Assembly (NCBI GenBank): GCA_003545625.1
Contig: DODH01000283.1
Coordinates: 2,149 to 7,652, forward strand
DNA from: Nitrospina sp.
GTDB taxonomy: Bacteria; Nitrospinota; Nitrospinia; Nitrospinales; VA-1
Direction of reading: 5' to 3'
DNA length: 5,504 bases
A model generated the notes under the pieces. That model saw only the letters and a list, made by a program, of their open reading frames with translations. It did not search any database and was not told the DNA's origin. A program made the position numbers and the translations under genes. Shown here one piece after another: positions 1 through 5,504 of the stretch. Each line of letters starts with the position of its first letter. The stretch's first letter is position 1.

Positions 1-1275
1 AGGAGATAGAGGTTGAGCCATTGGAGGGGAGACTGCAGGGGGGGCAGATTCTTGATTTTCCCGGGCGAGAGTGAACCGATTGTCCCCATCCACATGTCCT
101 TCACGAAACTTCTGGATTTCCGGTGCAAGGTTTTCAATCTGAACCGTGTCCGTTCGGGTGGAAACCATAGCCCGGTAAATCTCATTTTCAAGTTGACGCA
201 CATTTCCTGGCCAGCTATACCGAACCAGGGCTTCCAACGCGTAGGAGCTGACAGTGGGGATTTTTTTTGTAATGTCCAATTTATATTTTTTAAGAAAATG
301 GTTGATCAGGATAGGAATATCCTGCCCCCGATCCCTTAAAGGGGGTATTAATATCGAATAGACTACCAACCGGTAATACAAATCTTCACGGAACTTTCCT
401 TGGCGGACCGCATTTTCCAGGTCTTTGTTTGTGGCAGAAATGATTCTTAAATCCACCTGTATTTTTTTATTGCTACCGACCCTCTCGAAACTTTTATCCT
501 GTATAAAACGTAAAAGTTTTACCTGCATTTTTGGAGACATCTCCCCCACTTCATCCAGAAAAAGGGTGCCGCCATTGGCCACCTCCAGTTTTCCCATTCG
601 GGAATCATCGGCACTTGTAAAAGCTCCTTTTTCATGGCCGAAAAACTCATTCTCCTGGAGCTCTTCGGGGATAGCGCCACAATTGATCGCGACAAAGTCC
701 CCCATCTTGTAGGCACTGTTAAAATGAAGGGCTTTCGCCACCAACTCTTTGCCGGTACCACTTTCTCCGTGGACGAAAACATTAATGTTGATTGCCGAAA
801 CCTCATCAATCTGGGCAAACACCTGCTGCATTGCATCACTCTGCCCTACAATATTTTTATAGGAATAGGTTTTCTTCAGCTCTCCCTGCAAACGTTGGAT
901 CTTGTTGACCATCGTATGCATTTCGATGGCCCTTTCGACATTTGTTTTCAAGCGAACCTTATCCACCGGTTTCGCCATATAATCAAACGCCCCTATTTTC
1001 ATGGCTTCCACGGCGGAATCCACCGCGTCATTTTCTGTCACCACCAAAACCGGAATGTCCCGGTTCGCGAGCTTCAGGCGTTTGAGAATATCCAACCCCG
1101 CAGACATGTTGATGTCCAAACAAATCGCGTCGGGGTTTTCATCCAGCATATTCAGGCAAAGTTCGCCGTTGTCAAAAACTTTAACCCGGTAACCCTGATC
1201 CCGAAGCCATCCCGCCATCATTTTCCGATGGGGGGTGTCCGTATCCACAACAAATAATAGTTCTTTAGTTGCCAT
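1..1275 (-). CDS. NtrC-family sigma-54-dependent response regulator, C-terminus cut by window edge
   Basis: The frame is open from an ATG at 1275 to the window edge (425 codons, no stop). Residues 1-120 are a receiver domain with phospho-acceptor Asp54, Thr80 and Lys102 of the KP motif. Residues 140-390 are an AAA+ sigma-54 activator domain: Walker A GESGTGKE (170-177), GAFTSA loop (217-222), Walker B LFLDE (238-242), sensor I SATN (280-283), an arginine-finger-type segment FREDLYYRL (295-303) and WPGNVRQLEN (355-364). A Pro-rich linker follows, and the expected Fis-type HTH would lie beyond the edge. The family hydrolyses ATP to open sigma-54 promoter complexes after phosphorylation by a sensor kinase; no kinase gene is in view. 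Three oddities: the acidic pocket reads DTD (Thr12 for a usual Asp), the loop after Asp54 is about two residues short and lacks the usual MPG, and GAFTGA is GAFTSA. A possible Shine-Dalgarno AGGA lies close to the ATG. The gap to the upstream nuclease gene (1276-1376) shows no convincing promoter or terminator. The target genes cannot be told. Confidence 0.93.
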   Translation of the reverse strand, partial: MATKELLFVVDTDTPHRKMMAGWLRDQGYRVKVFDNGELCLNMLDENPDAICLDINMSAGLDILKRLKLANRDIPVLVVTENDAVDSAVEAMKIGAFDYMAKPVDKVRLKTNVERAIEMHTMVNKIQRLQGELKKTYSYKNIVGQSDAMQQVFAQIDEVSAININVFVHGESGTGKELVAKALHFNSAYKMGDFVAINCGAIPEELQENEFFGHEKGAFTSADDSRMGKLEVANGGTLFLDEVGEMSPKMQVKLLRFIQDKSFERVGSNKKIQVDLRIISATNKDLENAVRQGKFREDLYYRLVVYSILIPPLRDRGQDIPILINHFLKKYKLDITKKIPTVSSYALEALVRYSWPGNVRQLENEIYRAMVSTRTDTVQIENLAPEIQKFREGHVDGDNRFTLARENQESAPPAVSPPMAQPLSP

Positions 1276-1376: not shown

Positions 1377-2057
1377 TCATTTTATCTCGCATCTTTGAGA
1401 AACCCTGTAGCCCAAGGACTCCGCATCAAGCAAATTTCCAAAATTGATATAGCCCTTGGTATCTTTAGGATAGCCCTTGCATTCCGGCCATTCATAGATC
1501 CGGGTTTTAGGGTCGCCCAGCAAGCCATAACTCAAAAACAGGTCATAGTCCATATGCTCCGGTTTGGTTGGGGGAAGGGGGAGCCTATTTTCCCGGCGGA
1601 ACTCCCAAGGCGGAACAGGAGTTTCCTGAACCCACAGACCAAGATTTTTTTTCCAGGCTTTATATTCCAGCTTTTCAAGAAAACTGCTGTGGGGGTGCTT
1701 CACCCTGTAATGCCAAGCCAGCCCTGCTTTGAGCATTTCCTCATTCAACAATTTACCATCGGGCAAAAACACCTCTCCAATCAAGCGGCCATACTTGTCC
1801 TTAAAGGTGTAGTTCACCCGCACCGTTTTCTCCAGGGCCAAATCCACTGCCAACCTTCGGGCTGGCTTGCCAAACGGCTGACCCATTTCCGGAGCATCAA
1901 TATCCGCCAAACGCACCTTGTATAATCTATCGCGTTCCGTCTTTACCGTTAACGTGTCCCCATCCTGGATCTGAACCACTTCGCCATTTACCGTCTTCAA
2001 CTTTGCTTGCGGCACCAGAAACAGCATCAACACTAATAAACTTGTTTTGATTCCCAT
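1377..2057 (-). CDS. Exported staphylococcal-nuclease-like protein with C-terminal Cys-containing domain
   Basis: The product is 226 residues. Residues 1-18 form a short signal-like segment (Lys4, then a hydrophobic run 6-16) without a clear cleavage site, so export or membrane anchoring is likely but unproven. Residues 24-142 match the SNase fold. The counterparts of the catalytic and calcium residues of S. aureus nuclease are all visible: Asp34 in DGDT, Arg49, Asp54 and Glu57 in RLADIDAPE, and Arg91 in KYGR. The GLW...PVPPWEFRR segment (140-154) is typical of bacterial secreted SNase proteins. The tail (about 180-226), with IYEWPEC (187-193), the FGNLLDAESLGYR block and Cys223, resembles the small Ada-type metal-binding tail found on some SNase proteins; the usual His before the first Cys appears to be Glu189. 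The family cleaves DNA and RNA with calcium; the substrate here is not known. No Shine-Dalgarno precedes the ATG, but a promoter-like sequence ends six bases before it. It lies 153 bp downstream of the regulator gene on the same strand. Confidence 0.9.
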   Translation of the reverse strand: MGIKTSLLVLMLFLVPQAKLKTVNGEVVQIQDGDTLTVKTERDRLYKVRLADIDAPEMGQPFGKPARRLAVDLALEKTVRVNYTFKDKYGRLIGEVFLPDGKLLNEEMLKAGLAWHYRVKHPHSSFLEKLEYKAWKKNLGLWVQETPVPPWEFRRENRLPLPPTKPEHMDYDLFLSYGLLGDPKTRIYEWPECKGYPKDTKGYINFGNLLDAESLGYRVSQRCEIK

Positions 2058-2204: not shown

Positions 2205-2218
2205 CCCTCGCTAGAGGG
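2205..2218. repeat. Hairpin overlapping the regulator stop codon
   Basis: CCCTC (2205-2209) and GAGGG (2214-2218) are perfect inverted arms around GCTA, and the TAG stop of the regulator gene (2213-2211) sits in it. No T-run follows on the minus strand, so a rho-independent terminator is not supported. It may protect the mRNA 3' end or be incidental. Confidence 0.35.
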
Positions 2219-3239
2219 AACGCTCAATCATGAACCGGACATTGTCATTGGTGTTGGTGTATTCGATCTTTATTTTTGGGTATTTGGACTGAAACACACG
2301 AAACACCTCATCAACAAAGCCCTGGCCTACAGTAGAAATACCTTTAAAACCTAAAATTACATGTTTAAACTTCTCCAACCCCAAGCAAATGCGCCGAGCC
2401 TGCGAACGCGAGACATAGCGTTCATCGCCCAACATGCTCAGCACTACTTCAATATGGGTCTTGTCAAACTTGAGCAGCCCCTCAGAATCTTCCCCTGTAT
2501 ATTCTGCAAATACCTCCTGTAAATTTCTTTTCGAATCCAGACTTATGATCATTTCCAAGCCAGTTCCGGATTTTTGCGAAGCTTGGCCCGTTTCTATAAA
2601 CCAGTCTTCTTCCGAATTATCTCTTGCATAAGATATTCCTCTTGTAAAGATATGAAAGTAATCGAAGGCCCGGGAAGTGAAAAAGATGCCCTCACCGGTA
2701 TGGTTATCCGGGTCGGTGGTGAATTTTCCCTTTGAAAGATGCAGGGCACTTTCTCGCTCGTCCCCCAGGCCCAAGGCGTTCTTGATCTTTCTGAAAATTC
2801 CAATACCATTATCCTTAATTTTTATTTTCACTGAATCAGATTCCCATTCCGCACGTATCACTACAAAGGTTCCCTCTGAATGATCGATGGCGTTGTTGAG
2901 CATTTCCAGAAAACCGTATTCGCAAATATCCCGAACATTCTTTGGTAGCGTTTCAAAATCCTGTAAAAAGTTTTCTTTCCAGACTTTATCTTCGGCGACC
3001 CCGTCTTTCAAAGAAACCACCACCTCTTTATCTTTTTCTGTCTTTAAGAAATAGCGCGCTTGCCGGGTCGTGCCGGATTTTATGATCTTTCCATCCCGCA
3101 ACAACCGATTCAGATGCCGGTGGACGGTCGTGCGACTGCACGAAAAAGCCTCCGAGGTTTTGGCGACGATATTTTTCGGGTGCACCGGTATTTTCGCTAA
3201 AAGATAGCTGCGAATTTCTTCCGCCTGGTTCTTGACCAT
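2211..3239 (-). CDS. Winged-helix / GHKL ATPase / STAS-like DUF4325 regulator, probably autoregulatory
   Basis: The product is 342 residues from the ATG at 3239. Residues 1-66 look like a winged helix-turn-helix; the segment from Asn23 to Leu65 includes SCSRTTVHRHLNRLL as a likely recognition helix, followed by a basic wing. Residues about 85-235 are a GHKL ATPase: an N-box ending NNAIDHSEG (115-123), a G1 box DNGIGI (143-148) and a TGEGIFF lid motif (181-187). No phospho-acceptor His domain is seen, so it is not a classical histidine kinase. Residues about 255-342 match the STAS-like DUF4325 domain (SRSQARR 277-283, VGQGFVDEVFRVF 304-316). The place taken by the phosphorylatable Ser in SpoIIAA-type STAS domains reads GQG. 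Gly297 stands where I recall Asp being usual (LDF). AGGA (3249-3246) lies six bases from this ATG. The longer frame to TTG at 3302 starts within the -35 box and is rejected. DNA-binding regulation of its own promoter is inferred; the signal and other targets are unknown. It has no paired kinase or sigma factor nearby. Confidence 0.85.
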   Translation of the reverse strand: MVKNQAEEIRSYLLAKIPVHPKNIVAKTSEAFSCSRTTVHRHLNRLLRDGKIIKSGTTRQARYFLKTEKDKEVVVSLKDGVAEDKVWKENFLQDFETLPKNVRDICEYGFLEMLNNAIDHSEGTFVVIRAEWESDSVKIKIKDNGIGIFRKIKNALGLGDERESALHLSKGKFTTDPDNHTGEGIFFTSRAFDYFHIFTRGISYARDNSEEDWFIETGQASQKSGTGLEMIISLDSKRNLQEVFAEYTGEDSEGLLKFDKTHIEVVLSMLGDERYVSRSQARRICLGLEKFKHVILGFKGISTVGQGFVDEVFRVFQSKYPKIKIEYTNTNDNVRFMIERSL

Positions 3240-3249: not shown

Positions 3250-3293
3250 ATATTGCAACTAGTTATAAATATTATTATAACTAGTTGCAATAT
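3250..3293. promoter_or_regulatory. Perfect 19-bp inverted repeat, likely autoregulatory operator
   Basis: ATATTGCAACTAGTTATAA (3250-3268) and its exact reverse complement (3275-3293) flank a 6-base AT spacer. Each arm contains the self-complementary core AACTAGTT with partly symmetric flanks (TTATAAC and GTTGCAA half-sites), so the element reads as two inverted copies of one 16-bp site. It covers the promoter spacer, the whole -10 box and the expected transcription start, and it ends next to the Shine-Dalgarno sequence. Bound protein there would be expected to block transcription. The first gene downstream encodes a winged-helix protein, the natural candidate binder. An RNA hairpin is less likely because most of the upstream arm lies before the start site. 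Confidence 0.8.
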
Positions 3294-3302
3294 GCCTGTC
3301 AA
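3274..3302 (-). promoter_or_regulatory. Perfect consensus sigma-70 promoter of the regulator gene
   Basis: TTGACA (3302-3297) and TATAAT (3279-3274) match the consensus at all twelve positions with the ideal 17-bp spacing. Transcription would begin near 3267, giving a leader of about 28 bases containing AGGA. Such a strong promoter upstream of a regulator gene, overlapped by a large palindrome, suggests that it is normally repressed. Confidence 0.85.
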
Positions 3303-3357: not shown

Positions 3358-3392
3358 TTATAACTACATAATTTATCTATTATATCTAGTGG
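3358..3392. promoter_or_regulatory. Degenerate operator-like sequences upstream of the regulator
   Basis: TTATAACTA at 3358-3366 matches the first nine bases of the 16-bp operator unit exactly, and TTATATCTAGTGG at 3380-3392 matches 11 of 13. The surrounding region (3303-3400) is AT-rich, which raises the chance of accidental matches. They may be auxiliary binding sites or decayed copies. Confidence 0.25.
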
Positions 3393-5430: not shown

Positions 5431-5504
5431 TGGCTCCGGTGAGAGGACTCGAACCTCTAACAACTCGGTTAACAGCCGAGTGCGCTACCATTGCGCCACA
5501 CCGG
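5431..5504 (-). tRNA. tRNA-Asn (anticodon GTT), one base short at the window edge
   Basis: On the minus strand a full cloverleaf can be drawn: a D stem GCGC/GCGC, an anticodon stem CTCGG/CCGAG with loop CTGTTAA (anticodon GTT at 5473-5471), a variable loop TTGTT, a T stem AGAGG/CCTCT with loop TTCGAGT, a discriminator G and an encoded CCA (5433-5431). The acceptor stem pairs CCGGTG with CACCGG; the last base, A on the 3' side, would need a T at 5505, one base beyond the window. The mature length would be 75 bases. Confidence 0.97.

Follow-up and report, generated by a model that had tools for sequence, protein, structure and literature searches.

We have analysed a stretch of 5,504 bp from Nitrospina sp. 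(contig DODH01000283.1, here called the window) and in it the promoter of a gene whose 342-residue product joins a winged helix, a GHKL ATPase domain and a STAS-like part with DUF4325. Both gene and protein are called HGD here. The gene occupies positions 2211..3239 of the minus strand (ATG at 3239, 342 codons, stop codon at 2213-2211), and just upstream there is a 44-bp perfect palindrome (3250..3293), with two arms of 19 nt (3250-3268 and 3275-3293) that are 100% complementary and enclose a centre of 6 nt. A preliminary description of this DNA had reported the palindrome, and it is there exactly as given: the longest perfect inverted repeat (loop up to 12) is 19 in the window, whereas neither 60 shuffles of the whole window nor 3,000 of the segment 3239-3440 gave one longer than 11. 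It overlaps, as was also claimed, a perfect consensus promoter on the minus strand, with the -35 box TTGACA at 3297..3302 and the -10 box TATAAT at 3274..3279, 17 bp apart. This promoter matches at 12 of 12 positions and is the only one to do so among the nine promoter-like sites of the window.

The palindrome is composed of two near-palindromic 16-bp sites, which agrees with the earlier view of two inverted copies of one operator. The first, P1 (TTGCAACTAGTTATAA, 3275..3290, minus strand), overlaps the -10 box, all of which except the last base lies within it. The second, P2 (TTATAACTAGTTGCAA, 3253..3268, minus strand), is centred on a CTAG that lies 22 bp from the centre of P1 and overlaps the expected start of transcription, which judging by the position of the -10 box should fall at about 3267. 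For comparison we used 14 close members (the window and 13 relatives of at least 65% identity), 11 middle homologues and 20 distant ones (ca. 33-45% identity to the window). The palindrome could be aligned in 12 of the close members (alignment A4; L019 and L038 were excluded and the anchor of L015 was placed by hand). The preliminary description had proposed looking for its conservation upstream of close homologues, and in the window and 11 of the 13 relatives P1 indeed lies over the -10 box and P2 just downstream, both centred on CTAG or TTAG and 22 bp apart. The -35 box is exact in 11 of these 12 sequences and the -10 box in 10. The arms had been described as built around AACTAGTT, which is present in both arms of the window, but the core of P1 is CACTAGTT in six of the 12 sequences and the best-kept piece is TAGTTATAA.

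The element is also larger than was described at first: the palindrome is real, but copies at 3358-3366 and 3380-3388, further upstream, had been overlooked. Of these, U1 (TAGTTATAA, 3358..3366, minus strand) is 83 bp from the P1 copy and U2 (TAGATATAA, a match at 8 of 9 positions, 3380..3388, minus strand) is 22 bp from U1. In all 12 aligned sequences, TAGTTATAA-like copies (at least 7/9) are separated from the promoter copy by 83-85 and by 105-107 bp, and all except the window have a further one at 127-129 bp. Since 83-85 bp is close to eight turns of 10.5 bp and 22 bp close to two, binding on one face of the DNA is suggested. We also ran a test free of any motif, counting 9-mer direct repeats (at least 8/9 matching) at every spacing from 10 to 40 bp in the upstream regions and in shuffles of them. 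A 22-bp repeat was found in all 14 close members (shuffle mean 0.7, maximum 3 in 30) and in six of the 11 middle homologues (mean 0.4, maximum 2). At the same loci the 22-bp test was positive upstream of HGD in 13/13 cases, upstream of lgt in 1/12, and in none for the sigma54 response regulator (0/11), the SNase-domain gene (0/12) and hemB (0/7).

The sites are restricted to the HGD promoter in the genomes searched. The seven best orthologues (75-79% identity) are in metagenome-assembled genomes (MAGs) titled Nitrospina, Nitrospinaceae or Nitrospinota, and in seven orthologue genomes the exact 16-mers occur at the HGD promoter only. When up to two mismatches were allowed, 32 of the 34 paired-motif matches (a number that includes overlaps and single places read on both strands) were at this promoter, and a reversed control pattern gave seven. 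On a wider scale, the HGD protein is present in 33 of 195 relative genomes (E up to 1e-20) and the paired motif, with at most one mismatch, in 21 of the 195, in 16 of these at the HGD gene; the reversed pattern appears in 5/195. The other five genomes with the motif are G026, G055, G056, G073 and G174. An HGD regulon was considered and rejected: seven of nine off-locus near-matches to the 16-mer that were fetched (L079-L087) lie inside open frames of at least 90 aa, some of which resemble conserved enzymes by eye, and six of seven genomes had fewer near-matches than hits of the reversed control pattern, the exception being G002 with 30 vs. 27. As the matches fall mostly inside frames and the counts mostly below the control, no regulon is claimed, and further degenerate sites elsewhere are possible.

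Among distant homologues a similar layout recurs with other motifs. This set has eight sequences from genomes and 12 of the 17 loci on IMG/VR viral contigs, L075 having been removed as a near copy of L076, while L064 and L078 (copies of L063 and L077) and L062 and L068 (where the contig starts at the gene) were left outside, together with the genome homologues L058 and L061 and the weak matches L031-L035 and L037; start codons were picked manually. Direct repeats at 21-24 bp, a bin picked after a first inspection of the repeats in this set, are present in 14/20 (shuffle mean 1.6, maximum 5 in 100), and the -35 hexamer itself supplies part of the signal. The motif RKTKAYAA, derived from the same 20 sequences, has 24 occurrences in them (shuffle mean 1.8, maximum 5). 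Repeats of GTTGACAA, containing a TTGACA, are found upstream of L030, L042, L045 and L046, GTTTACAA-type repeats upstream of L069, L070 and L071, and L041, L043 and L044 carry an inverted pair, GTTGACAACT and AAGTTGTA, with arms 30 bp apart from start to start, around a promoter recognized by eye. The class of motif seems to track the recognition helix, again by eye: SRTTVHRH goes with TAGTTATAA, SRQA.NKH with GTTGACAA and SR.Y.N with AAGTTGTA. The viral loci were found with an alignment as query, the HGD protein of the window alone retrieving no relative from the viral contig collection, and at E 1e-5 the L044 protein retrieved none from collections of annotated plasmids and phages. Several of the HGD homologues on viral contigs (L062-L078) have repeats beside their start codon.

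The HGD protein itself was said to begin with a winged helix, and a structure model (mean predicted local distance difference test, pLDDT, of 90) bears this out, with predicted helices at residues 5-16, 24-32 and 36-48 and strands at 52-55 and 62-65 of an N-terminal winged-helix part (residues 1-66, 3042..3239, minus strand); every Pfam helix-turn-helix (HTH) match to HGD was under its cut-off. The predicted recognition helix (residues 36-48) is the best-kept part of the protein, with a mean of 96% to the window in 11 relatives, vs. 71% for linker plus GHKL domain. The latter (residues 67-237, 2529..3041, minus strand) matches HATPase_c with 29.1 bits (cut-off 26.4) and has a predicted SpoIIAB/RsbW-like fold, its likeness to kinases of this type being a fold match only. 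The ATP-binding residues N116, D143, G145, K170, G171 and G182 are kept in 71/71 sequences of alignment A3, which joins 43 of 120 listed homologues (7,484 were scored) to the window and 27 loci. In the C-terminal STAS-like part (residues 258-342, 2214..2468, minus strand), residues 280-334 match DUF4325 (PF14213, 51.2 bits, cut-off 23), a domain to which Pfam assigns no function. Residue 307, where the second STAS helix begins, is assigned by motif and fold-match ranges, rather than by a structural alignment, to the acceptor position of SpoIIAA (its phospho-serine) and CapS; it is Gly in 56 and Ala in 15 of the 71 sequences and never Ser or Thr. NCBIfam gave 22 families, each far under its cut-off, PADLOC three weak matches (best E 0.0059), PHROGs a match to phrog_3364 (function unknown), and the Protein Data Bank (PDB) sequence search VraS at 5.6e-6, with no other match below 0.03. 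A literature search found no study of this family. The GHKL part (window 2529-3041) changes far faster than the winged helix and the STAS-like part.

We take the element, with a probability of roughly 0.77, for that part of an autoregulatory operator array which is nearest the promoter; at this array HGD would repress its own gene. That relatives keep the array in front of the HGD gene is most likely due to the protein shutting down its own expression, and an operator that covers the -10 box, with exact sites nowhere else in seven genomes, fits autorepression. The sequences themselves show the sites, how they are spaced, conserved and changed in mirror fashion, and their confinement, in the searched genomes, to the HGD promoter; binding, repression, dimers and oligomers, and control by ATP and the STAS-like domain are what we infer. 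HGD dimers would use their N-terminal winged helices to bind P1 and P2 over the -10 box and the start, and more HGD molecules would sit on the phased upstream TAGTTATAA half-sites, the nearest of them ca. eight turns away. The oligomer formed along one face of the DNA, possibly looped, would exclude RNA polymerase and in this way keep the level of HGD low. Oligomerisation and hence release would probably depend on which nucleotide state the GHKL domain is in, with the STAS-like domain as its reader. Release through these two domains is possible, and the presence of Gly or Ala at the acceptor position in 71/71 sequences indicates that serine phosphorylation of the SpoIIAA type would hardly be its route.

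The symmetry of the palindrome admits a second explanation. In A4 the inverted identity between P1 and P2 is 16/16 in seven of the 12 sequences and 15/16 in an eighth, so that the long symmetry emphasized at first does exist, but it seems dispensable: it drops to 13-14/16 in L004, L006 and L007 and is also imperfect in L015, and all four keep the spacing. The outer half-sites are mirrored in 12/12 sequences, as TTGCAA in the window, TTACAA in two, TTACCA in six and TTATAA in three. For the three outer half-site pairs 36/36 cells are paired, with ten two-sided changes and not a single one-sided one. Over the whole palindrome 91.7% of the cells pair and the covariation score is 0.170, compared to 0.103 in shuffles (0/500 reach 0.170), counts that are not probabilities because the aligned rows are related. 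The half-site variants are scattered over a protein tree in which many forks are weak (the unknown residues of L038 were deleted for it), and L022, at 52% protein identity, keeps 18/19 dyad pairs with different half-sites. Such mirror change may come from selection by a symmetric protein complex or from copying of one arm by template switching, and both are possible together.

That the perfect symmetry is a mutational product of template switching during replication, repeatedly converting one arm into a match of the other, would be compatible with autorepression by HGD, and we take it as possible although rather unlikely; the long palindrome would then tell little more than its two sites do. 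Template-switch conversion has reportedly been described in quasipalindromes of E. coli. For RNA hairpins, arm conversion by template switching is described in PMC8794818. The ten two-sided changes without one-sided ones at the outer half-sites, and variants scattered on a poorly resolved tree, are what such a process would leave. However, other pairs of the palindrome do show one-sided changes (5 cells), and template switching cannot explain the phased copies upstream or the conservation of the promoter. In any case, the mirror change of half-sites makes the HGD promoter a natural test of operator coevolution vs. template-switch conversion.

It is improbable that the sites bind another regulator of the host and that HGD is merely the regulated gene. 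Direct binding by HGD is something we infer, and the motif resembles the -10 box itself. However, the arrays accompany HGD in differing neighbourhoods, with lgt in the group of the window and between other genes in L023 (genome G044), where HGD is flanked by a SUMF-like gene and a lipoprotein gene and the array lies between the SUMF-like gene and HGD. They accompany it on viral contigs too, and away from HGD the paired motif is near background (21/195 genomes, 16 of them at HGD, vs. 5/195 for the control).

Two genomes, G055 and G056, have TAGTTATAA arrays and no recognizable HGD gene, again between SUMF-like and lipoprotein genes (L047:4657-4805 and L048:4839-4978, respectively). The ca. 140-150 bp between these genes contain four TAGTTATAA-like sites in each genome, with a pair of sites at 22 bp in both and a second such pair in G055. 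Only short DUF4325 frames, and no HGD at E 1e-3, were found in these two MAGs, whose completeness is not known. G054 has another order, with HGD upstream of the SUMF-like and lipoprotein genes. Probably the HGD gene was lost from G055 and G056 and the array left behind. The array is still readable in both lineages, whose flanking proteins share 68-84% identity. One could think of the array as primarily a nucleoprotein landmark, present once in each chromosome and akin to partition or damage-sensing sites, with autoregulation as a secondary role. The gene-less arrays, the single array per genome in the seven searched (two weak matches aside) and an ATPase encoded beside its own array go in this direction, but we find it very improbable, since the HGD promoter of close members has the array built into it; nor was a partition-like partner seen, although no search was aimed at one. 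The least probable reading is that the palindrome works as a hairpin in RNA, be it an attenuator, terminator or stability element, within transcripts that read in from the upstream lgt. In its favour, pairs change on both sides, the arms of the window fold into a 19-bp stem of -24.4 kcal/mol vs. -6.5 +/- 2.1 in shuffles (six of the 12 aligned sequences were folded), and the less symmetric L004, L006, L007 and L015 still out-fold most shuffles (z -2.5 to -3.9). However, these four have far weaker stems (-7 to -12.8 kcal/mol) while the site spacing is kept, the transcript of the consensus promoter would contain the 3' arm only, no U-run follows the palindrome and no terminator-like site was called there, and the upstream direct repeats are left unaccounted for.

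Autorepression by HGD also has to face several observations that weigh against it. Even within the close members, L019 and L038 lack a good P2 (L038 has unknown bases) and the spacing of 12 bp is also elevated (8/14, second highest; shuffle mean 0.6), and five of the 11 middle homologues fail the 22-bp test. Among the distant ones, repeats at 21-24 bp are missing from L041, L043, L044, L063, L073 and L077, three of the 14 positives (L067, L072 and L076) are by eye off the motif type, and spacings of 9-12 and 33-36 bp are raised as well, with 5/20 each (shuffle means 1.7 and 1.3). The palindrome as a whole has 19/228 unpaired cells, 5 cells changed on one side, and fewer further pair types than the shuffles (7 vs. 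9.3, with 499/500 shuffles at or above the observed value). The outer half-sites change in step and the recognition helix hardly at all, a pattern not expected from site-by-site selection, and G055 and G056 keep the array without the HGD gene. Finally, a protein activating its own promoter might leave a comparable trace upstream, although the position of P1 on the -10 box favours repression over activation.

The nearest studied circuit found in our literature search is that of CapK and CapS, controllers of anti-phage operons (EMBO J 2026, PMC13373217). There, CapK is an HTH-STAS-GHKL protein and CapS, encoded directly downstream, a STAS-winged HTH (wHTH) protein that binds palindromes of TTAA half-sites over promoters, acts as a repressor of its own and apparently forms oligomers along the DNA (PMC13373217). 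By this account the likeness lies in a GHKL kinase of the anti-sigma type, STAS and HTH parts within one circuit. However, CapK/CapS are two proteins and HGD is one chain in the order wHTH-GHKL-STAS-like, with Gly or Ala at the aligned acceptor position and a 22-bp phased array, and the gene downstream of HGD codes for an SNase-domain protein, not for a STAS-wHTH protein of the CapS type. Because the domain order and the downstream neighbour differ, HGD is not a CapK, although it may work like the CapKS pair. No immune genes were detected by Pfam among the neighbours of HGD in the window; wider neighbourhoods were not scanned for immune systems. The anti-sigma switches SpoIIAB/SpoIIAA and RsbW/RsbV also differ from HGD, which is fused to a winged helix in a single chain, lacks the acceptor serine and has no known sigma-factor partner.

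Autorepressors with helically phased operator arrays are a general class, and HGD resembles them in having an operator over the -10 box of its own promoter and in-phase accessory sites upstream. It departs from them in that its DNA-binding part is joined to a GHKL ATPase and in the recurrence of a similar layout, with other motifs, in distant members. More tentatively, HGD could represent a widespread class of one-chain, ATP-gated switches acting on DNA arrays, in chromosomes and prophages alike, in which kinase and STAS modules, in other systems separate partners linked by phosphotransfer, are fused to a winged helix and do without the acceptor serine. The nucleotide would control how HGD oligomerises on its own phased operator, and operator and protein would evolve together. 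No description of one-chain, ATP-gated array switches of this type was found in the literature search. The array would give the HGD family its first testable function, self-binding and autorepression at phased sites with one motif per clade. Were this borne out, HGD would be a transcription switch in which the anti-sigma kinase/STAS toolkit has been reassembled within one chain, and so a counterpart of CapK/CapS.

As for the rest of the locus, the window has five protein genes on the minus strand, in the order hemB, lgt, HGD, SNase and sigma54 response regulator, an order found in six of the seven loci L001-L007 (the sequence of L002 stops before lgt). At the end of the window there is an incomplete tRNA-Asn (GTT) gene (5431-5504, minus strand), the only match to Rfam in the window at gathering thresholds. 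The SNase-domain gene (1377-2057, minus strand) is downstream of HGD and has a relative in the same place in 7/7 of these loci; it was not found in the stretch examined of the close relative L009. Five of the 11 middle homologues (L021 and L026-L029) also have an SNase relative near HGD, without lgt in the stretch examined. A second, partial copy of HGD with an internal stop (L036, G054:C47:8522-8833) lies just downstream of the full gene in G054. Lastly, the sigma54 response regulator gene (window 1-1275) and its orthologues have 21-bp direct repeats in 5/11 upstream regions.
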